The position numbers and the translations under genes are program-made. A model generated the notes under the pieces. That model ran no database searches. It was given only the letters and a program-made list of their open reading frames with translations, and had not been told where the DNA came from. DNA of 64,000 bases from Halobacillus hunanensis (GTDB lineage: Bacteria > Bacillota > Bacilli > Bacillales > Halobacillaceae): contig NZ_FVZB01000006.1 of assembly GCF_900166655.1 (NCBI RefSeq), forward strand, positions 744,001-808,000, given 5' to 3'. The stretch's first letter is position 1; the number at the start of each line of letters is the position of its first letter. Below, one piece after another: positions 45,536 through 64,000 of this stretch.

Positions 45536-46666
45536 TCAATAACTCTTCCAAATAACTCTATTCACATAATCCGTGTAAGACAATATTATCCTTAGTACTT
45601 TGTCCGCCACATTCGAAATACTATAATCCTCAACATCTCGTAACGAATCTTTTCCTTGCATTTCAAGAACTTCTATCCCCTGCAATATTCTTTCTTTATT
45701 TAATCCAACCATCATAACTGATGCCTCTTCCATCGCTTCAGGCCGCTCATGTGCTTCACGAATGTTCAAAGCAGGAAAGCCTAAAATCGAGGATTCTTCA
45801 CTAATCGTCCCACTATCACTTAATGTCGCCTTTGAATTTGTTTGAAGCTTTATATAATCATTGAACCCCAGTGGCTTCATCGTCTTAACTAATGAATTAA
45901 ATTGGACATTCCTTTTTTCAATCATTTTCCTAGTTCTAGGGTGAGTACTCATAATAATAGGTAATTGGTATTTTTCAGCAATTGAATTTAGAGTATTAAC
46001 TAAATCAAAGAAGTTTTTTTCTAAACCAATATTTTCTTCACGGTGCGCCGAAACAACAAAATATTCTTTTTTGTTCAAATCCATCCGTTTGAGAACATCG
46101 GACTCCTCAATATCTGCAATACGGCTATGGATAACTTCATACATAGGACTTCCTGTTTTTATTACACGTTCAGCTGGAAACCCTTCGCGTAGTAAATACT
46201 CTCGAGCAATATCACTGTAAGTTAGATTAATATCTGATACATGGTCAACTATTTTTCGGTTTGTTTCTTCGGGTACACGTTGGTCAAAACAACGGTTGCC
46301 TGCTTCCATATGGAAAATAGGGATCTGTCTTTTTTTAGCTGCAATCGCGCATAAACAACTATTTGTATCTCCTAAAACTAAAAAAGCATCTGGATTTACC
46401 TCTTCCATAATAGGATCAACTTTAATTAAGATATTTCCCACAGTCTCAATAGCTCCACTTGTAGCAGCATTAAGAAAGTAATCTGGCTTTCTTAAATGAA
46501 AGTCATCAAAAAAAACCTCGTTCAGTTCATAGTCATAATTTTGTCCAGTGTGAACGAGAATATGGTCAATTGCTTCTGACTCTTCTAGTTTATTTATGAC
46601 AGCTGAAAGTCGTATAATTTCTGGCCTAGTACCAACAACTGTCATAACCTTTAATTTTGTGCTCAT
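45536..46666 (-). CDS. capG: UDP-N-acetylglucosamine 2-epimerase-type enzyme (CapG/FnlC)
   Basis: A 376-residue non-hydrolysing epimerase (WecB fold): VVGTRPEIIRLSAVINKL, HTGQNYDYELNEVFFDDF, VLGDTNSC, HMEAGNRCFDQRVPEETNR, SAHREENIG and SDSGTISEESS with catalytic residues kept. Because it follows capE- and capF-like genes in the same order as in the Staphylococcus aureus type 5/8 capsule locus, it most likely makes UDP-L-FucNAc from UDP-N-acetyl-L-pneumosamine rather than UDP-ManNAc. Confidence 0.9.
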   Translation of the reverse strand: MSTKLKVMTVVGTRPEIIRLSAVINKLEESEAIDHILVHTGQNYDYELNEVFFDDFHLRKPDYFLNAATSGAIETVGNILIKVDPIMEEVNPDAFLVLGDTNSCLCAIAAKKRQIPIFHMEAGNRCFDQRVPEETNRKIVDHVSDINLTYSDIAREYLLREGFPAERVIKTGSPMYEVIHSRIADIEESDVLKRMDLNKKEYFVVSAHREENIGLEKNFFDLVNTLNSIAEKYQLPIIMSTHPRTRKMIEKRNVQFNSLVKTMKPLGFNDYIKLQTNSKATLSDSGTISEESSILGFPALNIREAHERPEAMEEASVMMVGLNKERILQGIEVLEMQGKDSLRDVEDYSISNVADKVLRIILSYTDYVNRVIWKSY

Positions 46667-46669
46667 CTA

Positions 46670-47764
46670 TTAAACCTCCAAAAAGTACGTATCTGGATGA
46701 TTCGGATCTAATGTCTCATTAGCCCACATGACAGTTACTAAATTTGTCTCCCCAACGTTCACAATTGAATGAGTATATCCCGTAGGAATATCGACAACCT
46801 CTAATTTATCTCCATTCACACGATATTCAATAATATCATCGCTACCTATTTTCCGAAAACGAATTAACCCTTCACCACTAACTACTAAAAACTTTTCATT
46901 TTTAGTATGATGCCAGTGATTTCCTTTTGTGATACCAGGTTTAGAAACGTTTACCGATACTTGACCACGGTCATTACTTTTCAAGAACTCAGTGAAGGAA
47001 CCACGATTATCGTCATTCATTTTTAGTGGATAAGAAAATTGATCTTCTGGTATAAAACTCAAATAAGTGCTGTAAAGTTTCTTAGTTAAAAGATCACCCA
47101 TATAAGGAACAAAATGATTATCTCTACTTTCTTTAAAGCTTTGAATTGTTTTAGCTAACTTTCCCAAAGATATTTTATGAGATACAGGGACTGTATAAAA
47201 GCCTGATGACTTTTCTTCTTTCTCCATCACACGAATAAGTTCATTCACCACATCATCAATGTATACAAACTCAAGCTCTTTTACAGGATCATTAACGGCA
47301 ACAGGAATATCTCTAGCAACATTATGGCAGAAAGTAGCTACTACTGTATTGTAATTTGGTTTCGACCATTTTCCAAATACATTCGGTAACCGAAAAACAA
47401 GCGATTTTTTTACATTTTTTAAAAGGACTTCCTCCGCTTCGCGTTTGCTAGTTCCATATGGTGAATCATTTTCCGCTTGAATGGAAGAAGTAAAAACTAA
47501 AGGAGCCTCATTATTATATTCATTCAATAAAGCAATGATTTCAGTTGTTAAATCTACATTACCTTCAAAAAACTCCTTTTCCTCGTTAGGACGATTAACA
47601 CCCGCTAAATGAAACACAAAATCACATGTTTTTAACATTGACTCTAAGTCAGCTTTTGTGGATTCCTTTGTGTAAGGTAAAATCTCTTGGTATCCTCTAT
47701 TATTCAACTCTGCTATCAAGTTTTTACCTATAAACCCATTTGCACCAGTTACTAAAATTTTCAA
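46670..47764 (-). CDS. capF: UDP-2-acetamido-2,6-dideoxy-hexulose reductase (CapF/FnlB)
   Basis: A 364-residue bifunctional protein: an N-terminal SDR domain (ILVTGANGFIGKNLIAELNN, then DFVFHLAGVNRP and SPYGTSKREAE with the YxxxK pair) and a C-terminal cupin (about 255-364; GNHWHHTKNEKFLVVSGEG) that holds zinc in CapF. It epimerises and reduces the keto sugar made by CapE on the way to UDP-FucNAc. It lies 12 bases after capE and three before capG. Confidence 0.93.
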   Translation of the reverse strand: MKILVTGANGFIGKNLIAELNNRGYQEILPYTKESTKADLESMLKTCDFVFHLAGVNRPNEEKEFFEGNVDLTTEIIALLNEYNNEAPLVFTSSIQAENDSPYGTSKREAEEVLLKNVKKSLVFRLPNVFGKWSKPNYNTVVATFCHNVARDIPVAVNDPVKELEFVYIDDVVNELIRVMEKEEKSSGFYTVPVSHKISLGKLAKTIQSFKESRDNHFVPYMGDLLTKKLYSTYLSFIPEDQFSYPLKMNDDNRGSFTEFLKSNDRGQVSVNVSKPGITKGNHWHHTKNEKFLVVSGEGLIRFRKIGSDDIIEYRVNGDKLEVVDIPTGYTHSIVNVGETNLVTVMWANETLDPNHPDTYFLEV

Positions 47765-47776
47765 CGACAGACCTCC

Positions 47777-48808
47777 TTACACCGTTACTTTATCTTTCCA
47801 TTGACTTAGTTCTTCTTGTATAAAATCTAATTCGAGAAGCTTTTCTTTTACTTCATTAATATCTAGTATTCTTGTATTGTGCGAATTATATTCTTGAATA
47901 GTAGAAAGCTGATCATTTCCTTCTTTAAAGTACTTATCATAATTTAAATCACGCTGATCTGCCGGGACGCGGAAGAACCCCCCAAGGTCCTCAGCGACAA
48001 CAAATTCTTCTTTCGTCAAGAGAGTTTCGTAAAGCTTCTCTCCATGTCTGGTTCCAATAATTTTAATCTCATTATCTACATCGAATAATTCCTTCAATGC
48101 TTGAGCTAGAACACCTATAGTGCTAGCAGGTGATTTTTGAACCATAATATCTCCTGCTTCTCCATTTTTATAAGCAAATACAACAAGTTCAACAGCCTCT
48201 TCTAAACTCATTAAGAAGCGCGTCATGTTCGGGTCAGTCACTGTAATTGGTTTTCCTTGTTTGATCTGGTTAATAAATAACGGAATAACAGAACCTCTTG
48301 AAGCCATTACGTTTCCATATCTTGTCCCACATATGAGTGTACGATCTGGAGAAACGGTCTTAGACTTAGCAACAAAAACTTTTTCCATCATTGCTTTGGA
48401 GATCCCCATTGCATTAATTGGATATGCTGCTTTGTCAGTCGAAAGACAAACTACTCTTTCAACACCAGTTTCGATAGCCGCTGTTAAAACATTCTCTGTA
48501 CCCACTACATTCGTGTTTACGGCTTCCATAGGGAAAAATTCACAGGAAGGAACTTGCTTCAATGCTGCGGCATGGAAAACATAATGCACATCATACATAG
48601 CATTCTTTACACTATCTTTATCACGGACGTCCCCGATAAAAAATTTCACTTTTTCATTTTGGTATTCTCTACGCATATCGTCTTGTTTTTTTTCATCACG
48701 CGAGAAAATTCTGATTTCTTTCACGTCTGTTTGTAAAAAACGATTGAGTACTGCATGACCAAATGAGCCGGTGCCACCTGTAATTAGTATTGTTTTTTCT
48801 TCAAACAT
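47777..48808 (-). CDS. capE: UDP-GlcNAc 4,6-dehydratase/5-epimerase (CapE/FnlA)
   Basis: A 343-residue SDR enzyme: ILITGGTGSFGHAVLNRFLQ, RDEKKQDDMRREYQNEKVKF, HAAALKQVPSCEFFPMEAV and CLSTDKAAYPINAMGISKAM, where Met replaces the usual Tyr, as is normal for this inverting dehydratase group. It starts UDP-L-FucNAc synthesis from UDP-GlcNAc. Its start overlaps the preceding glycosyltransferase gene by eight bases. Confidence 0.93.
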   Translation of the reverse strand: MFEEKTILITGGTGSFGHAVLNRFLQTDVKEIRIFSRDEKKQDDMRREYQNEKVKFFIGDVRDKDSVKNAMYDVHYVFHAAALKQVPSCEFFPMEAVNTNVVGTENVLTAAIETGVERVVCLSTDKAAYPINAMGISKAMMEKVFVAKSKTVSPDRTLICGTRYGNVMASRGSVIPLFINQIKQGKPITVTDPNMTRFLMSLEEAVELVVFAYKNGEAGDIMVQKSPASTIGVLAQALKELFDVDNEIKIIGTRHGEKLYETLLTKEEFVVAEDLGGFFRVPADQRDLNYDKYFKEGNDQLSTIQEYNSHNTRILDINEVKEKLLELDFIQEELSQWKDKVTV

Positions 48809-50706: not shown

Positions 50707-51894
50707 CTAACCTCTTCTTATGCCTTTATTAATCATGTTTTTTGTTTCCTCTGCTCTTTTTTCAGCTTTTCTTATGTCTTTTGCAACAGAAACTACATAT
50801 CCATTCCCATCTAAGTTGTTATGGTATTCGCTAATCAAACTTCCAACTTTTAAATCATGATAAATATCAACCCCAAACTTCTCCTTGATTATTGAAAAAT
50901 TTGGCAACCCTATTACTTCTCCCGGATCTAAAGCCAATATTTTTGTTACAACATTTACTCCTGATTTTTGAGTTTCAAAATCAACTGTATCTCCTAACGA
51001 GGCACGTATTAGACTTCCCATATAATCAACGCCTGTTCCAACAGGAATGATATGTGATCCAATTAAGTTCCCCCCCATTCTTGCTCCTATATCAATAATA
51101 CAGATGCGGTTGTCCTTCGTGACCAGCACATCCATATTTACCGCGCCGAAATTTATTCCTAAGGCTTCGATGGCATTTTTAGCCACTTCTTTCACGTCTC
51201 TTTCAATTGGTAACTGACTAGGAATAAAATGACCTAGCTCCGCAAAATCAGGTGGATTGGTCATATATTTGCCCATAACCCCAAGCACGTAAACCTTTCC
51301 GTTATAGACCAAGGACTCTATCCCATACTCTTTCCCTTCAATAAAATCTTCTATTAGGGCTTTCCCAATCAAAGAAGCTTTTATCGCCCTATCGCAGGCA
51401 TCTAGCAAATCTGAGTATGAATCAACTTTCTTGGTAGCCTTACTCCCTGACCCATCACACGGCTTTATCATTACAGGAAATTTAATTAAGTTACGTATTT
51501 CATCCAGTTCATCAGTATTACTAATTTCATAATATTGAGAAACATCATCAACATTCTTCCTAAACAATTCACGGCGCACAATATATTTATTTTTGATAAC
51601 CTTGGCAACTTCATTTTTTAGTCCAGGAAGATTCATTTCTTTCGCAATATACGCTGTCGAAAGCACACCATAGTCCGTTGCAGCTGTCATGACCCCATCA
51701 ATCTTCATAGCCTGTGCATACTTTAAGCATGCCTTTTGGTCAACAATATCAATAACGCTGAAATCATCAGCGTATTTAAATCCTATAGAGTTTGGATTAC
51801 CATCTATTGTAATAGTATAATATCCCATTTCTTTTGCCTTTCTGATAACAAAGGCTTGTAGAAAACCCGCACCCACTATAAGGACTTTTTTCAT
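50707..51894 (-). CDS. ATP-grasp ligase
   Basis: A 395-residue ATP-grasp protein: N-terminal Rossmann-like domain (KVLIVGAGFLQAFVIRKAKE), KFPVMIKPCDGSGSKATKKV (ATP-binding loop), EDFIEGKEYGIESLVYNGKV and ICIIDIGARMGGNLIGSHII (metal-binding end of the grasp). Such enzymes join a carboxylate to an amine. Between sugar transferase and GNAT/aminotransferase genes it may add an amino acid or other acid to an amino sugar; this is inference. ATG 51894 follows GAGGATGG, whereas the longer frame to 51924 includes that site. Confidence 0.85.
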   Translation of the reverse strand: MKKVLIVGAGFLQAFVIRKAKEMGYYTITIDGNPNSIGFKYADDFSVIDIVDQKACLKYAQAMKIDGVMTAATDYGVLSTAYIAKEMNLPGLKNEVAKVIKNKYIVRRELFRKNVDDVSQYYEISNTDELDEIRNLIKFPVMIKPCDGSGSKATKKVDSYSDLLDACDRAIKASLIGKALIEDFIEGKEYGIESLVYNGKVYVLGVMGKYMTNPPDFAELGHFIPSQLPIERDVKEVAKNAIEALGINFGAVNMDVLVTKDNRICIIDIGARMGGNLIGSHIIPVGTGVDYMGSLIRASLGDTVDFETQKSGVNVVTKILALDPGEVIGLPNFSIIKEKFGVDIYHDLKVGSLISEYHNNLDGNGYVVSVAKDIRKAEKRAEETKNMINKGIRRG

Positions 51895-51959
51895 TCTGAA
51901 CCATCCTCTTCTACCTTTAACCAATTACCCTAAAAACTAAGAGAAATATAGATTAAGTA

Positions 51960-52472
51960 CTAAAGTTGTTTTTCCATCAATGAAACTGTAAAATGCCTTG
52001 TTGATTTTGACCCTGTAACAACAAATCCTCTTTTTTTATAAAACCGAATTGCATGCTTACTCTTATCATAAACTTCTAAGCTGATATTTGAGACACCTCT
52101 ACTTAGGCAATACTTTTCAATGTAATTAATACTTTGCTTTCCTATACCACATCCTGCATATTGGGGTAGAGTAGCAAATTTATTTATGACCACTATATTA
52201 CTTACTTTATTATTACTATTAGAGTTCTTCAAGTCATCATTTAAGAACTCTAATTGGAATGTATGCACGTATGAGTTTGTATCTGTATTTTTAGCTAAAA
52301 ATACTTCTCGTTCTTTGCAGTCTATTTTAATATTTTCAATAGGGTATGGTGTTCTCCAGTGGATTAATCCTTTTTCCTTAAACATTTTTTCTCCACTGTT
52401 CTTAATAATTTCGTAAACTTCTGATAGTTTGTTCTGTTCATCTGGATAAACCTTTTCATATACTAATTTCAC
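51960..52472 (-). CDS. GNAT-family N-acetyltransferase
   Basis: A 170-residue GNAT enzyme. The acetyl-CoA loop is LPQYAGCGIGKQSINYIEKY, and SLEVYDKSKHAIRFYKKRGF with VVTGSKSTRHF forms the C-terminal part. It sits between an aminotransferase and an ATP-grasp gene, so acetylation of the amino sugar made by the aminotransferase is a reasonable guess; a PglD-type hexapeptide acetyltransferase is absent. The N-terminus has EIIKNSGEKMFKEKGLIHWR, typical of small GNAT proteins. Confidence 0.8.
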   Translation of the reverse strand: MKLVYEKVYPDEQNKLSEVYEIIKNSGEKMFKEKGLIHWRTPYPIENIKIDCKEREVFLAKNTDTNSYVHTFQLEFLNDDLKNSNSNNKVSNIVVINKFATLPQYAGCGIGKQSINYIEKYCLSRGVSNISLEVYDKSKHAIRFYKKRGFVVTGSKSTRHFTVSLMEKQL

Positions 52473-52518
52473 CTAATTTCCCTCCTTTATCATAACTAAT
52501 CAGTAGTTAATTAATACC

Positions 52519-53736
52519 TTACATATTATTCAAAATTTCTTTTAAGCTATCAATAACATACTCAACATCCTCATTACTTAACAAAGTATGAAGTGGTAAT
52601 GAAACCTCATTCTTATACACATTAAAGGCATTCGGATAATCTTTAATATCAAACCCTAGATTCTTATAAGCCGTAAACATTGGCAAAGGCTTATAGTGTA
52701 CATTACAAACTATACCCGCCTCAGCCATTTTAACGATTATTTTATTTCTCTCAGCTTCTTCGATTCCAGGTATTCTCATTAAATATAGATGACCTGAAGA
52801 AGCATATTCATCTGAATAATGCTGTAACCTTTTAATTCCTAAAGGTAGCAACGCCTTGTCGTACATATCAATTATTTCCTTACGTCTTTTAATGAGAACA
52901 CCGTATCTGTTTAACTGTATCAAACCTATTCCAGCAGTTATGTCAGTCATATTACACTTGTAAGCCGGAAGGACAATGTCATACTCCCATGAACCTTTTT
53001 TTGTTTTCGCAAAGGCATCTTTAGACTGTCCATGAAGGCTGTATAGCATAAATCGATTATATAACCATTCATCATCTAAACCACGGAGACTACGCCAGAC
53101 GACAGCTCCACCTTCAGCAGTAGTCAAATTTTTCACTGCATGGAAAGAGTAGCAAGTAAAATCTGTAACTTGTCCACATTTCATCCCGTGCCTCTCTGCT
53201 CCAAGAGCATGAGCAGCATCAGTCATTACAACTATTCTATTAAATACTTTTTGGATTTCATTATTGGGTTTAAAAATTCCTTTATTGTTTTCTACAACTT
53301 TATAAATAGCCTCGTAATCACACATTTTACCCGCTATATCAACAGGAATAATGGCTTTCGTTTTTTCAGTAATCGCCTCATCAAGTTTTGAATAATCCAT
53401 TTCAAAGGAATCTGGAGCGTTATCAACCAATACTATTTTTGCACCAACATGTTCTATTATTGATGCAGATGCCGTATAAGTATAAGCTGAGGTAATAACC
53501 TCATCCCCAGGTCCTATTCCCAAAATACGAAGAGTAAGTTCCATTGCTGCAGTAGCAGAGTTAAGGCATACAGCTTTTTTCACACCAACGTATTCGGCAA
53601 TTTTCTTTTCGAACTCTTTTGTTCTAGGGCCAGTTGTGATCCACCCAGACTTAATTGCTTTTGTAACTTCTTCGACCTCAGCATCTGTAATATCCGGTGG
53701 AGAGAAAGGTACATTTCTTACATTAGAATCAGTCAC
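52519..53736 (-). CDS. DegT/DnrJ/EryC1/StrS sugar aminotransferase
   Basis: A 405-residue PLP enzyme of the PglE/ArnB group: PFSPPDITDAEVEEVTKAIK, SGWITTGPRTKEFEKKIAEY, LNSATAAMELTLRILGIGPG, the PLP lysine in CYSFHAVKNLTTAEGGAVVW, and HYKPLPMF. It moves an amino group onto a keto-sugar nucleotide, probably the UDP-4-keto-6-deoxy-GlcNAc made by the PglF-like dehydratase at 56290. It begins the sub-operon 53736-50077; a 300-base gap lies before it. Confidence 0.9.
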   Translation of the reverse strand: MTDSNVRNVPFSPPDITDAEVEEVTKAIKSGWITTGPRTKEFEKKIAEYVGVKKAVCLNSATAAMELTLRILGIGPGDEVITSAYTYTASASIIEHVGAKIVLVDNAPDSFEMDYSKLDEAITEKTKAIIPVDIAGKMCDYEAIYKVVENNKGIFKPNNEIQKVFNRIVVMTDAAHALGAERHGMKCGQVTDFTCYSFHAVKNLTTAEGGAVVWRSLRGLDDEWLYNRFMLYSLHGQSKDAFAKTKKGSWEYDIVLPAYKCNMTDITAGIGLIQLNRYGVLIKRRKEIIDMYDKALLPLGIKRLQHYSDEYASSGHLYLMRIPGIEEAERNKIIVKMAEAGIVCNVHYKPLPMFTAYKNLGFDIKDYPNAFNVYKNEVSLPLHTLLSNEDVEYVIDSLKEILNNM

Positions 53737-58205: not shown

Positions 58206-58973
58206 TTAAAATAATCCCAAAAACTTTTTCTTTTTAACATGCGTTGGCACATCCGAAGCTAACGCTTGTCCTTCAGCAACATACTCCGCATTTTCCGCAA
58301 ATAAATAAACCATGGACTGACCATAGTTTTTTCGTAACTCCCTATAGGCATCCTTCATACAAAACCCTCTAGAAGTGGTGTTATGAGCATCAGATGCAAT
58401 AAGGTGGGTCAAGTTCGCTTCGATTAATTTGTGAGTAAATTTCTGGATGTTCTTTCCGAAACGTCCGCATAGGCTGGCTGCTGTGATCTGAGTGTATGCA
58501 CCTTTTTTAACTAAGTTGTAGAGTGTGTCGGGATGCTGGATAATATGGCGATTGCGTTCTGGATGGACAATAATGGGCTGATAGCCTTCAACTTGCATGT
58601 CGAATAATAGTTTACTAGCATATCTCGGAACGGTATCCGATGGAAATTCGACAAAGACATAGTTTCCTGTTTTGTTTAATGTGAGGATTTCATCGTTTCT
58701 GAGTCCCTCTAACATGTCTCCATGGATTCGTGTTTCCTGTCCTGGTAAGACGGTTAATGGAACCTCATAATCTGACAAATGTCGATTGAGCTCAGCCACT
58801 TGGATCGTGATGTTGTTCTTGTAGTTATTGTAGGTCCCGTTCTGGTGGTGAGGTGTAGCAATAATCGTATGTATGCCATCAGCTACAGCTGCTTGGGCCA
58901 TCTTGATGCTTTCTTCAATGGACTGAGCACCGTCATCAACACCAGGGAGTATATGGCTGTGGATATCAATCAA
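58206..58973 (-). CDS. CpsB/YwqE-type protein-tyrosine phosphatase, catalytic copy
   Basis: A 255-residue PHP-fold metallophosphatase that dephosphorylates BY-kinases controlling polysaccharide export. Expected metal ligands are all present: His5 and His7 (DIHSHILPGVDDG), His42 (TPHH), Glu80 (PGQETR), Glu109, His137 (IVHPERN), and Asp195 and His197 (ASDAHN). It is the first gene of the polysaccharide locus. Its usual kinase/modulator partners (YwqC/YwqD type) are not in this window. Two paralogs at 60412 and 61940 lack the last two ligands. Confidence 0.9.
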   Translation of the reverse strand: MIDIHSHILPGVDDGAQSIEESIKMAQAAVADGIHTIIATPHHQNGTYNNYKNNITIQVAELNRHLSDYEVPLTVLPGQETRIHGDMLEGLRNDEILTLNKTGNYVFVEFPSDTVPRYASKLLFDMQVEGYQPIIVHPERNRHIIQHPDTLYNLVKKGAYTQITAASLCGRFGKNIQKFTHKLIEANLTHLIASDAHNTTSRGFCMKDAYRELRKNYGQSMVYLFAENAEYVAEGQALASDVPTHVKKKKFLGLF

Positions 58974-59343: not shown

Positions 59344-59738
59344 CTATCTGGATGTTTTTATAAGATCACTAAAATAAAAAATATGAATGAACGAGCAGGC
59401 TATTAATACACCAAAATTATTCTTCACCAAATCAATTACCGTAAATGACCTACCCACAACATAAAACTGATGGACTTCGTCTACAAACCCATACAGCATG
59501 GCAACGGCCGCTGCTGCATAACTGGTAGTCTTCGTAAACCTTTTGTTGACTAGCAAGGCTCCAACAATTAGCAAATACAAGATGGCAAATTCGATTAGGT
59601 GCAAGCTCTCAAACAACGTATTAATCGTCATGGCAATATACAGATAAAACTTTTAATTTCTGCAATCGTTGAGCTGGATTGTAGCCAGATAAGAATCATG
59701 TAAAGTACAGGCAGGATCGTAAATAGAATGCGGCGCAT
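59344..59738 (-). pseudogene. VanZ-like membrane protein gene, split by a frameshift
   Basis: ATG 59738 opens a frame encoding MRRILFTILPVLYMILIWLQ then SSSTIAEIKSFI, which ends at 59628. The next frame begins with an ATG overlapping that stop (ATGA) and encodes SLHLIEFAILYLLIVGALLV, YGFVDEVHQFYVVGRSFTVI and DLVKNNFGVL to the stop at 59344. Together they form a normal VanZ protein (helices, DExHQ, GRxxxxxD). Either it is a frameshifted gene or translation is coupled across the overlap. The longer second frame alone is 95 residues. Confidence 0.7.
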
Positions 59739-59895: not shown

Positions 59896-60228
59896 TCATG
59901 TATTATCTTTCTTATCACGCATGTATTTAATGGTTTTTATATATTCTCGAAACAATTCCTTAGATAAGCCAGCATCTACTACTTCATTAATCAGACTCAA
60001 CCATTCTTCATCTAAAATGTTTTTACCTTCCCCTGTTCCGTGAAACAGAAAGGCTGTAGGAACTTCAAGTTCCTTAGCAACCTTTTCTATGAAATCAATA
60101 GAAGGATTGGTTTGTATTTCTCTTTCTATAGAACTTATATAAGATTTAGCAAAACCTGTCCTTTTTGCCAGCTCTGATATTGTCATACCTCTCTCTTTCC
60201 TTATCTGCTTTATCCGACTACCGATCAT
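59896..60228 (-). CDS. SinR-like XRE regulator, copy 1
   Basis: A 110-residue regulator. The N-terminal HTH_3 domain (MIGSRIKQIRKERGMTISEL, then AKRTGFAKSYISSIERE) is close to SinR/SlrR of Bacillus, and the C-terminal LDEEWLSLINEVVDAGLSKE with REYI matches the SinR/SinI interaction helix. SinR represses matrix polysaccharide operons. Location beside a polysaccharide locus and YwqE paralogs supports a role in their control. Two more copies lie at 62928 and 63431. Confidence 0.85.
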   Translation of the reverse strand: MIGSRIKQIRKERGMTISELAKRTGFAKSYISSIEREIQTNPSIDFIEKVAKELEVPTAFLFHGTGEGKNILDEEWLSLINEVVDAGLSKELFREYIKTIKYMRDKKDNT

Positions 60229-60411: not shown

Positions 60412-61170
60412 TTAGAAGATCCCCAATACTTTTTTCTTCTTCACTCTTTCCGGAGGTTCGGTTGCTAAGGCCTGTCCCTCCACGAGATACTGTGCATTTT
60501 CCGAGAAGTAATAGACCATCGATTGATCGTAGTGCTTTTTAATCTCCCGGTAGCCATCCTTGAGATTAAGTCCACGTGGCTTCTGTGCGCCTGACGCAAC
60601 CAGGTGCACTAAATTTGCTTCGATCAATTGATGGGATAACTTCTTGATTTTGCTGCCGTACTTGCCAAGTAAACTGGCAGCCGTTATCTGAACAAATGCC
60701 CCGTTCCTTACGATAGAATAAAGCAAGTTTGGCTGCTCAATGATTTGTTCGTTCCGTTCAGGGTGCACGATGATCGGGCGATACCCTTCTACCTGTATGT
60801 TAAATAAGAGCGTGTTCAAATATCCCGGCACGTGATCACGAGGCAATTCGATCAATATATAATCCCCTTCATTAACGGTTAAGATCTCATCTTTCTGAAG
60901 CGCCTCAACAATATCACCATATACACGTGTCTCTTGTCCGGGCAAAACCGTTAGTGGTATATCGCGTTCCTCAAATTGTCGATTCAACTCATTGACTTGA
61001 ATAAGAATATTGTTCTTATAATTATAATGACTCCCATTGTTATGATGCGGCGCAGCTACAACTGTCCGTAGCCCATCCTTTACTGCTTTCTCTGCCATTT
61101 TCATACTATGTTCCATTGTTGATGCCCCTTCATCAACACCTGGAAGGATATGCGTGTGAATATCTATCAT
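60412..61170 (-). CDS. CpsB/YwqE paralog 2, metal site altered
   Basis: A 252-residue PHP-fold protein about as long as the catalytic copy and very similar to copy 3. His5, His7, His42, Glu80, Glu108 and His136 are kept (DIHTHILPGVDEG, APHH, PGQETR, IIVHPERN), but the C-terminal ASDAH motif reads ASGAQ: Gly194 for Asp and Gln196 for His. Both are metal ligands in CpsB-type phosphatases, so activity is doubtful. It could be a pseudo-enzyme that binds a phosphotyrosine protein or regulator. It follows a decayed SinR-like remnant in the array. Confidence 0.85.
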   Translation of the reverse strand: MIDIHTHILPGVDEGASTMEHSMKMAEKAVKDGLRTVVAAPHHNNGSHYNYKNNILIQVNELNRQFEERDIPLTVLPGQETRVYGDIVEALQKDEILTVNEGDYILIELPRDHVPGYLNTLLFNIQVEGYRPIIVHPERNEQIIEQPNLLYSIVRNGAFVQITAASLLGKYGSKIKKLSHQLIEANLVHLVASGAQKPRGLNLKDGYREIKKHYDQSMVYYFSENAQYLVEGQALATEPPERVKKKKVLGIF

Positions 61171-61401
61171 TGCCCAAAACCCTTTCCCCTTAGAATTTCT
61201 ATAATTTTTCTATCTGACTTGCTGAAATCTCTCTCTATCTAGCAAAATAGTTTCCCGAACCTTCCAATATTCACCCATATTCCTAAGCAAATTTTGGTAT
61301 CGTTCTCATAATAATTCATGTTGCATATCTCAACCTTAAAAATCTAGGTATCGAGATTCTCTAAATAAAAATAAGCAGTCCCTTGGGTTGCTTTTGTAAC
61401 C

Positions 61402-61463
61402 TCATTCTATTTCTTCCAGGAATACACGGAACTCTCTTTCAATAATCTTGATTCCGTGCCTTT
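61402..61463 (-). pseudogene. Remnant of a fourth SinR-like gene
   Basis: The minus strand encodes HGIKIIEREFRVFLEEIE and a stop, parallel to SGISKEQFRDYLEFNKWK at the end of copy 3. The DNA-binding half is not recognisable upstream. The position, between two YwqE paralogs, is where the repeating order would place a regulator. Confidence 0.45.
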
Positions 61464-61888
61464 TGGGTCAGATAATGCCACTATTTATCAACCAGATCAC
61501 CAATAAATAATAAAAAGACAATCCCTTAATAATAGGATTCGATTATTTATCCCGTTCTATCAAGCATGAGTATGTTTTAACGAACAATACTAGCTTGGAT
61601 AGCATGTGTTTGATGTGCATACCACGTAATACCTAGAACCTCCTCCCTCAAACAATTATACCCCCATTTTTTATGTAAAAAAGTGAATATACTGTATAAA
61701 TATAGGTAAGTTTTGGTTTTCTAATGGTAATTACCTATGACTTTCTATATATATTACCATGACTAGGGGGGAGAAACCAACATATTTAATACACTTTTTT
61801 TCGCTAAAAAAAACGCTATTTCTCACACAACGCTTTATAAACCTGACGTATTGTTATGGTTATTGTCGAATTTCTATTTAACTTTAAA

Positions 61889-61925
61889 AACATACACAGT
61901 AAAAAGAGACCCCTAAGAGGTCTCT
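61889..61925 (-). terminator. Terminator of YwqE paralog 3
   Basis: AAAAAGAGACCCCT / AGAGGTCTCTTTT hairpin, a near copy of the one at 60371 with the same ACACAGTAAAAAGAGACC flank. Confidence 0.8.
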
Positions 61926-61939
61926 TTTCTATGCGTGAA

Positions 61940-62698
61940 TTAGAAGATTCCTAATACCTTTTTCTTCTTCACTCTTTGCGGAGGTGCGGTTGCTAAGGCC
62001 TGGCCCTCCACGACATACTGTGCATTTTCCGAGAAGTAGTAGACCATCGATTGATCGTAGTGCTTTTTAATCTCCCGGTAGCCATCCTTGAGATTAAGTT
62101 CTTGTGGCTTCTGTGCACCTGACGCAACCAGGTGCACTAAGTTGGCATCGATCAATTGATGGGATAACTTCTTGACTTTGCTGCCGTGCTTCCCTAGTAG
62201 GCTGCCAGCTGTAATTTGAACAAATGCGCCATTTTTCACGAGGGAATACAGTAGATTCGGCTGCTCGATGATTTGTTCGTTTCGTTCGGAATGGACGATG
62301 ATCGGCTGATACCCTTCTACCTGCATGTTGAATAAGAGGGTATTCAAGTATCCCGGCACGTGGTCATGAGGCAGATCGATTAATACATAATCCCCTTCAT
62401 TGACGGTTAGAATCTCATCGTTCCGGAGCGCCTCTACTAGATCTGCATATGCGCGTGTTTCCTGACCGGGCAGAACCGTAAGCGGAATGTCGCGTTCCTC
62501 TAATTCCCGATTCAACTCCCTGACCTGAATCAGAATTGTGTTCTTATCATTAACGTGACCCCCATTGTTATAATGCGGAGCCGCTACAACTGTCTCTATT
62601 CCATCCTTTACGGCTTTCTCTGCCATTTTTATACTATGTTCCATCGTCGAAGGTCCCTCATCAACGCCTGGAAGAATATGAGTGTGAATATCTATCAT
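61940..62698 (-). CDS. CpsB/YwqE paralog 3, metal site altered
   Basis: A 252-residue paralog closely similar to copy 2. It shares the ASGAQ change (Gly194, Gln196) and has further drift: Asp108 in place of the metal-binding Glu, PHY instead of PHH after the conserved His42, HSERN instead of HPERN, and KPQE where the catalytic copy has an Arg after the ASDAH motif. Catalysis is therefore even less likely than for copy 2. The open frame, good start and terminator show it is still kept as a gene. It precedes the SinR remnant. Confidence 0.85.
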   Translation of the reverse strand: MIDIHTHILPGVDEGPSTMEHSIKMAEKAVKDGIETVVAAPHYNNGGHVNDKNTILIQVRELNRELEERDIPLTVLPGQETRAYADLVEALRNDEILTVNEGDYVLIDLPHDHVPGYLNTLLFNMQVEGYQPIIVHSERNEQIIEQPNLLYSLVKNGAFVQITAGSLLGKHGSKVKKLSHQLIDANLVHLVASGAQKPQELNLKDGYREIKKHYDQSMVYYFSENAQYVVEGQALATAPPQRVKKKKVLGIF

Positions 62699-62927: not shown

Positions 62928-63242
62928 CTACCCATCCATATCTTGATTCCGCTTTAAATATTCACGGAACTTTTCCTTCGATACTCCCAACCTCTGTGCC
63001 TCTTGAATTAAATTTTTCCATCCTTCATCAAGGAAGTCTTCATTCGTTTCCCCATAAAGCAGATAATTGAGGGATACATCAAGTTCTTTAGCGACTCTCT
63101 CTAAAAACTGTATAGTAGGGTTGGTTTGTCTGTTTCGTTCTATTGAGCTTACATAAGATTTGGCGAATCCCGACCGCTCTGCTAGTTCGGAAAGAGTCAT
63201 CTTCCTCTTTTTCCTTATTTCTTTGATGTGTTCACCAATCAC
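62928..63242 (-). CDS. SinR-like XRE regulator, copy 2
   Basis: A 104-residue regulator starting at GTG 63242, behind AGGAGG. HTH_3: EHIKEIRKKRKMTLSELAER, then FAKSYVSSIERN. C-terminal SinI-like helix: FLDEGWKNLIQEAQRLGVSK followed by REYLKRN. The HTH recognition region differs from copy 1 at only a few positions, so the paralogs may share targets or form mixed dimers through the C-terminal helices. It is followed by YwqE paralog 3 after 230 bases. Confidence 0.85.
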   Translation of the reverse strand: MIGEHIKEIRKKRKMTLSELAERSGFAKSYVSSIERNRQTNPTIQFLERVAKELDVSLNYLLYGETNEDFLDEGWKNLIQEAQRLGVSKEKFREYLKRNQDMDG

Positions 63243-63430: not shown

Positions 63431-63760
63431 TTATGACTTTTGGTTGATTTTCCATTTATTAAACTCTAAATAATCGCGGAATTGTTCTTTGGAGATTCCA
63501 GAATTCATAGCTTCGTGGACGAGATCAAGCCAATCGTCATCTAAGCTTTCCTCTTTAGCGGACGTTTCTCCGTGGAGCAGATAGTTGATTGAGATGTCCA
63601 GTTCTTTGGAGATCTTTTCTAGAAATTGGACGGATGGGTTGGTTTGCAGGTTTCGTTCAATAGAACTGAGGTAAGACTTGGCTACACCTGCTCGATCGGC
63701 CAGTTCAGACAAGGACATGTGGCGGTCTTTACGGATTTGTTGAATGCGGCTACCGATCAT
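63431..63760 (-). CDS. SinR-like XRE regulator, copy 3
   Basis: A 109-residue regulator with SinR layout: MIGSRIQQIRKDRHMSLSEL, then GVAKSYLSSIERN, LDISINYLLHGE and the C-terminal LDDDWLDLVHEAMNSGISKE with RDYLEF. ATG 63760 follows AGGTGA; the frame is open to 63805 without a site. It ends in its own terminator, so copies 2 and 3 are separate units. Upstream to 64000 no further gene is recognisable. Confidence 0.85.
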   Translation of the reverse strand: MIGSRIQQIRKDRHMSLSELADRAGVAKSYLSSIERNLQTNPSVQFLEKISKELDISINYLLHGETSAKEESLDDDWLDLVHEAMNSGISKEQFRDYLEFNKWKINQKS

Positions 63761-64000
63761 GCTTTCACCTACTTTCTTAATTAACAAAAGTATAGCATAA
63801 TTCATCCCCGTGTTCTATTTAAAGTACGAAAATCGTCAACTTGTCCTAGGTCGCGGAATTATTGTAAGACTTTTTGCTTGAAAAATTGATTTTTTACTAG
63901 TTGTTTCGATTAGATTCTCTTGAAGGGCTGTCGAATGATGAACAGTTATGGGTGCTAGTTGCAACGTTGCAGTGGTCATTTAGGAGGGTGGTGTTCTTTA

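Follow-up and report, generated by a model that had tools for sequence, protein, structure and literature searches.

The window analysed here is a stretch of 64,000 nucleotides from Halobacillus hunanensis (bases 744001–808000 of contig 1, in a genome of 3.98 Mb), and it carries three CpsB/CapC genes, all on the minus strand. They lie upstream of the genes of an exopolysaccharide operon, among them epsC/capD, gtaB, ugd and other sugar and glycosyltransferase genes. The cluster is interleaved with three SinR-like genes and one small VanZ-like gene, and all coordinates given below for genes and motifs of this cluster refer to the minus strand. Copy 1 (58206–58973; 255 amino acids, aa), directly before epsC/capD, gtaB and ugd, is by alignment and profile a canonical CpsB/YwqE-type metal-dependent tyrosine phosphatase with the motif ASDAH at 58383–58397 (residues 193–197, which hold D199 and H201 of Cps4B). 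Copy 2 (60412–61170) and copy 3 (61940–62698), both of 252 aa, read ASGAQ at the matching place (60583–60597 and 62111–62125, residues 192–196 in each) and are referred to here as pseudo-CpsB. The three proteins match the CpsB_CapC profile PF19567 over its whole length (213, 182 and 177 bits for copies 1, 2 and 3, respectively; cut-off 27), and they are the only matches in the whole genome at E ≤ 0.001. The ATG starts of copies 2 and 3 are preceded by AAGGGGA-type ribosome-binding sites, and a hairpin with a T-run follows each gene, both features having been read by eye; a terminator consensus scanner reported neither of the two hairpins. A preliminary description of this DNA had taken both extra copies to be of full length with starts and terminators, and the open frames agree with this.

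Residues are numbered after Cps4B, on an alignment that included the solved relatives YwqE (3qy6) and CpsB (3qy8). In Cps4B, metal M1 is bound by H5, H7, E80 and D199, M2 by E80, E108 and H136, and M3 by D14, H42 and H201, and the phosphate is held by R139 and R206 (PMC2777267). Copy 1 has all 11 of these residues, in keeping with the ASDAH described for it before. Copies 2 and 3 carry D199G and H201Q, which confirms that the metal-binding Asp and His reported as replaced are indeed ligands; D14E is common to both, and two residues are missing from the loop that follows the motif; neither feature figured in the preliminary description. Copy 3 has E108D and R206Q beyond the changes of copy 2, the same Asp at position 108 and missing Arg that had been noticed earlier. 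H5, H7, H42, E80, H136 and R139 are kept in both copies. Neither copy has the complete M1/M2/M3 ligand set of an active PHP tyrosine phosphatase, and given the absence of D199 and H201, the trinuclear site cannot form as it does in Cps4B. In the pneumococcal CpsB, D199N and H201Q combined had the same effect as deleting cpsB (Morona et al., cited in PMC2364625). In Lactobacillus Wzb, replacing His5/His7 or His42/His43 lowered activity by up to 99%, and changing histidines 197 and 198 lowered it by 75% (PMC2364625), while activities of 1–20% are quoted for His5, His7, His42 and His201 mutants and of about 40% for R206A (PMC2777267). With D199 and H201 lost and D14 changed to Glu, little or no phosphatase activity is expected and, judging from these published mutants, the activity of copies 2 and 3 has very probably been lost or nearly lost. 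Remnant activity is possible, since the Wzb 197/198 mutants lost only 75%.

Copies 2 and 3 are 87% identical; Nei–Gojobori counts put their differences at 38.5 non-synonymous and 70.5 synonymous, and their ratio of non-synonymous to synonymous rates (dN/dS) at 0.109 (bootstrap 0.067–0.174). Compared with the corresponding copy of a congeneric genome, G007, the ratio is 0.052 (0.026–0.092) for copy 2 and 0.144 (0.088–0.232) for copy 3, and copy 1 gives 0.056 (0.019–0.111) between the same two genomes. Over the genus and Gracilibacillus, degenerate pairs range from 0.05 to 0.15, on the whole above the intact pairs (0.03–0.11); many wider pairs were saturated at synonymous sites and have no value. 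In a simulation of neutral substitution, the fraction of runs that ended with the reading frame (ORF) still open was 0.85% at 0.15 changes per site and 0.1% at 0.25, and the 12 ORFs found at this position in 11 genomes of the genus are all of full length. An AlphaFold model of copy 3, built from 13 sequences, has a mean predicted local distance difference test (pLDDT) score of 92.5, falling below 50 in the final four residues only. Its best match is YwqE 3qy6 (TM score 0.95, root-mean-square deviation 1.2 Å, 42% identity), so that the distorted TIM-barrel PHP fold is predicted to be intact, and the basic C-terminal tail is kept as well (KKKKVLGIF versus KKKKFLGLF). Catalytic residues gone, purifying selection and an intact paralogue (copy 1) in the same genome are the marks of a pseudophosphatase, and the ligand loss and the dN/dS between copies 2 and 3 favour the family of pseudophosphatases suggested in the preliminary description, as far as sequence comparison can tell. 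Copies 2 and 3 are not decaying, and selection for a function has very probably preserved them.

The cluster was compared across a genus set of 11 genomes, G000 (the source of the window) to G010. In the fullest layout (G002, G003, G005, G009 and G010), the order is SinR-like gene, distal CpsB, SinR-like gene, middle CpsB and proximal CpsB. G001 has a second middle copy, G000, G006, G007 and G008 are without a middle copy, and about 167 kb lie between the distal and proximal copies of G008. G004 has the fullest layout with a split proximal gene, which extends over two frames of 101 and 179 aa (L038, 11188–11977); the split could be real or a sequencing error, and this genome is also the sole member of the genus whose distal copy retains all ligands. 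All 10 full-length proximal copies are canonical, and one middle copy of G001 has H201Q alone. Distal copies with lost ligands occur in 10 of the 11 genomes, and the residues lost differ: D14E, D199G and H201Q in G000 (twice, with E108D also in copy 3) and G007; D199G and H201Q in G008; D14E and D199G with a gap at 201 in G005; D14N, H42Y, E80V and D199E in G006; E80Q and E108D in G001; E80L and H136N in G003; H42N, E80L and H136N in G010; H42A, E80V, H136Q, R139H and H201K in G009; and H5N, D14E, H42A, E80I, H136Q and H201R in G002. R206 is also variable among these copies. The ASGAQ motif is limited to three of the genomes (G000, twice, G007 and G008), and these four rows, which are all the ASGAQ rows among 64 aligned sequences, form one clade with support of 100/94.

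The SinR-like regulator directly upstream of copy 3 (62928–63242) and a second one further upstream (63431–63805) both contain HTH_3 and SinI-type domains. The third (59896–60228) lies between copy 2 and the gene for the small VanZ-like protein (59344–59631; PF04892), which is followed by copy 1, and it has HTH_3 as well, but its match to the SinI domain is under the Pfam cut-off. A SinR-like gene is located directly upstream of a distal copy in all 11 genomes of the genus, at 101–559 bases in 10 of them (measured to the open frame) and at about 230 in the window. An ASGAQ clade linked to sinR-like genes had been proposed; the clade is recovered and the linkage holds for the whole genus, but there is no tie specific to the clade, as a SinR-like gene also precedes the ligand-complete middle copy wherever one occurs (seven genomes) and the only CpsB, an intact one, of another genome, G014. 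Given that intact copies are preceded by SinR-like genes too, this neighbourhood does not explain the ligand loss. Copy 2 is preceded only by a decayed SinR-like remnant (tblastn E ~1e-4), placed by protein match at about 61516–61626 within the intergenic stretch 61171–61939, and positions 61604–61880 share 83% identity with the G007 sinR region (blastn to L041). Because this stretch aligns with the sinR region of G007 and carries the remnant, copy 2 seems to sit in a tandem-duplicated sinR-sinR-cpsB block whose sinR genes have eroded, and it stayed under selection although its sinR decayed. A test for SinR operators was uninformative: the B. subtilis SinR motif GTTCTYT matched 32 times over 76 kb, without any clustering around the CpsB copies.

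For the search outside the genus, a scan of named genomes queried with copy 2 returned no relative, and the loci were obtained with an alignment of canonical copies, a query that favours canonical motifs by design. Among the 78 named loci, four (H. andaensis, H. campisalis, Halobacillus sp. A5 and sp. A1) are the same places as G001, G003, G009 and G010. One CpsB is present at 57 loci, always canonical, as the scan favours, and more than one at 21. A degenerate copy is included at 15 of these 21, distributed across Gracilibacillus (5), Halobacillus (4), Aquibacillus (4) and Ornithinibacillus (2), and the other six are all canonical. Each of the 15 begins with a degenerate copy and ends with a canonical one. 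The 11 loci from outside Halobacillus share the order Wzz/CpsC, bacterial tyrosine kinase (BY-kinase) with a YYYY tail, degenerate CpsB and canonical CpsB, with two degenerate genes between the kinase and the canonical copy in A. rhizosphaerae; the gene upstream of the degenerate copy is thus the BY-kinase, and the SinR profile had no match at these 11 loci. In an order-wide draw of 249 genomes, CpsB was found in 188, with more than one match in 38, some of which are pieces of broken genes. About 20 kb around one match was examined in 20 of these 38 genomes, and degenerate copies were present at three of the 20 loci (G212, G258 and G204). The order in G212 is kinase, degenerate CpsB and intact CpsB, and G204 has two adjacent, strongly degenerate genes (YNS-KHECGNQ and HYS-LSSCGHH; L188, 17305–19118) about 7.4 kb downstream of an intact one. 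A rule that the degenerate copy always lies upstream, true at the 15 named loci, is ruled out by G258 and G204. G174 has seven CpsB matches, and the one place examined there (L182) contains one intact copy. The other Halobacillus group sampled, g4 (L048, L049, L050, L052, L053, L089 and L098), holds a second group of degenerate CpsB distant from the canonical copy; some of these have N199 (one also V80), and others have N5, R42, V108, Q139 and N or H at 199.

Changes in the ligand columns were then counted in copies picked by position and not by ligand state, with a reference of 57 columns whose conservation among 97 other canonical copies was 97% or higher; the rows are related, so the counts are not independent. 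In the genus distal set (12 sequences, including that of G004), 43 of 132 ligand cells were changed versus 76 of 552 other conserved cells (permutation 204/20000), and 10 of 11 ligand columns were changed at least once versus 20 of 46 others. In 20 first or upstream extra copies from outside the genus, 12 of them degenerate, the figures were 89 of 220 versus 141 of 920 cells (permutation 1/20000) and 11 of 11 versus 31 of 46 columns. A narrower position-chosen version (14 upstream copies; six left out, five of them intact) gave 74/20000 and 0/20000. The excess of change in the ligand columns over other conserved columns, together with its recurrence in other species, points to more than chance. 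On a tree of 142 rows, built in one short search with the ligand columns excluded, and with D/E swaps not scored as losses, losses-only parsimony, which assumes no regain of lost ligands, required nine losses, or eight with branches under 95 support collapsed (Cytobacillus gottheilii L170 scored as canonical). Ligand loss has evolved repeatedly, with at least eight losses under losses-only parsimony, and this repeated evolution of preserved copies with a broken metal site suggests a useful non-enzymatic job. A phosphotyrosine trap working through a kept R139 was considered and rejected, as in 36 degenerate copies the retention of R139 is no better than that of H5 (25), H7 (28), E108 (27) and H136 (26).

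In the H. hunanensis genome, a single BY-kinase match exceeds the family cut-off (G000:C1:233034-233642, L076), about 570 kb from the CpsB cluster, with the tail NSNYYYYYGNS and a Wzz/CpsC modulator gene beside it; on inspection by eye, the gene next to this pair resembles one for a WecA/TagO-type transferase. The BY-kinase match of G008 is split in two pieces. The tyrosine tail of the kinase was rejected as a correlate of degenerate copies: KKGHYYYY tails are also present where the search found a single, intact CpsB (Gracilibacillus timonensis L157, L119, L120), and the tail thus looks like phylogeny. A yeast two-hybrid assay shows contact of the B. subtilis phosphatase YwqE/PtpZ with the kinase modulator TkmA (PMC4205851), and CcpS is a protein inhibitor that binds CpsB (PMC10148854). 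Considering these two contacts and the presence of a degenerate CpsB beside an intact one across lineages, a non-catalytic partner or competitor is the explanation we favour. It has about an even chance of being right that copies 2 and 3 are CpsB pseudophosphatases that act in this way in the BY-kinase/CpsB switch, a statement in which both the partner and the sign of the effect are our inference. Their function probably lies in the kinase/phosphatase switch, and a decoy on the kinase or the modulator specifically is proposed only tentatively. The preliminary description had suggested that the copies may bind the kinase or a phosphotyrosine tail, and such binding is plausible. In such a scheme, the CpsB gene of the exopolysaccharide locus would have been duplicated to give copies 2 and 3, and the trinuclear metal site would have been lost as M1 lost Asp199, M3 lost His201 and Asp14 became Glu, with the CpsB fold and the basic C-terminal tail retained under purifying selection. 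The copies would then act as non-catalytic partners in the tyrosine-phosphorylation switch, either by taking the place of active CpsB where it docks on the kinase/modulator pair or by pairing with active CpsB, and phosphorylation of the kinase tail might be raised or timed in a way that changes exopolysaccharide output. It is conceivable, though we would not count on it, that the Bacillales switch has a recurrent, catalytically dead CpsB decoy, often encoded between the BY-kinase and the active CpsB, that shields the phosphorylated tyrosine tail or blocks phosphatase docking, like eukaryotic dominant-negative pseudophosphatases.

Several observations weigh against the proposed partner in the kinase switch. 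The kinase gene of the genus is about 570 kb from the CpsB cluster, whose neighbours are SinR-like genes, and the kinase partnership therefore rests on the other genera. The degenerate copies of g4 lie far from the canonical copy, and that of G258 is downstream of the intact one, so the position is not universal. The distal copy of G004 keeps every ligand, and among the 20 extra copies in first or upstream position outside the genus, 8 still have all metal ligands. Copy 2 retains six of nine metal ligands, which means that one or two metals might still bind. R139, which holds phosphate, shows no special retention, the residue being Arg in 20 and Lys in 6 of 36 degenerate copies.

SinR proteins are regulated by small partner proteins, as in SinI/SinR, and the degenerate copies could be anti-repressors or co-regulators that bind the SinR-like repressor, or its SinI-type dimerization domain, and set the expression of the exopolysaccharide operon. 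The SinR-like gene directly upstream of the distal copy in all 11 genomes would fit such a role, which is nevertheless unlikely: intact middle copies and the single intact CpsB of G014 have the same neighbour, copy 2 lost its own sinR yet shows a dN/dS of 0.052 against G007, and degenerate copies occur outside the genus where the SinR profile matches nothing. Slow, functionless decay of redundant duplicates under relaxed selection would account for the erosion of the active-site columns and for a dN/dS that is on the whole higher in degenerate than in intact pairs. This we judge to be quite unlikely, given that all 12 distal ORFs are of full length, that the three bootstrapped pairs lie far below a dN/dS of 1 (upper limits 0.092–0.232), that 86% of the other conserved cells are kept (476 of 552) and that neutral simulation keeps the ORF open in under 1% of runs.

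An activity kept or altered, in the form of a mono- or di-nuclear site hydrolysing another phospho-substrate, would be compatible with the intact H5, H7, H42, E80, H136 and R139, from which M2 and part of M1 and M3 could form, and with Glu14 standing in for Asp14. However, sister lineages lost E80, H136 or H42 instead; as the ligands lost differ, no common reduced site has been conserved, and joint mutation of D199 and H201 abolished function in pneumococcus (PMC2364625), which makes a retained enzyme very unlikely. Less improbable, though still rather doubtful, is a heteromeric subunit, with the degenerate copy joining active CpsB in a mixed complex, adjusting the stability or localization of the enzyme and leaving the kinase untouched. 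A canonical CpsB is present at all 15 named loci with a degenerate copy, which the scan favours by design, and in E. coli DNA polymerase III a degenerate PHP domain plays a structural part (PMC3666897), but the passages cited here contain no oligomer data for YwqE/CpsB, and in several genomes the degenerate and canonical genes are far apart.

Two further groups of genes in the window were recorded. At 45536–48808, three consecutive sugar-nucleotide genes contain Polysacc_synt_2, Polysacc_synt_C and Epimerase_2 domains, and look like a UDP-N-acetyl-L-fucosamine pathway (CapEFG/FnlABC-like). Within the exopolysaccharide cluster, an ATP-grasp protein and a GNAT acetyltransferase adjoin a DegT/DnrJ aminotransferase at 50707–53736.

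The way in which kinase phosphorylation and polysaccharide length are controlled by CpsB-type phosphatases is an unsettled question. Repeated loss of the metal site with the protein kept implies that the CpsB fold serves some purpose besides catalysis, and the degenerate copies are a natural set of inactive variants in which this purpose might be found. A match to PF19567 is by itself no proof of a tyrosine phosphatase, since a recognizable share of the matching proteins in Bacillales is without the metal ligands. Among the matches listed, no description of ligand-less CpsB paralogues was found in the open-licence literature by title and start of the abstract, and the pseudophosphatase papers listed (on trypanosomatids, PHLPP, CorB and PPM1H) include none on a PHP/CpsB protein, by title.

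Copies 2 and 3 share the family (PF19567), length, fold and exopolysaccharide context of YwqE (PtpZ) of B. subtilis and CpsB (Cps4B) of S. pneumoniae, and the basic C-terminal tail is common to them and YwqE; unlike both enzymes, they are without D199 and H201 and have Glu for D14, and copy 3 is also without E108 and R206. With pseudophosphatases in general, they share the loss of catalytic residues, the conserved fold and the active paralogue. The PHP domain of the alpha subunit of E. coli DNA polymerase III has likewise lost ligands and kept its fold in a non-enzymatic role, but it is a domain within a polymerase and not a free-standing paralogue beside an active phosphatase (PMC3666897). 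In Streptococcus suis, CcpS controls the CpsB/CpsD switch as a bound partner, which is the kind of control proposed here for copies 2 and 3, although CcpS differs in having a disordered N-terminus and in being phosphorylated by Stk1 (PMC10148854).

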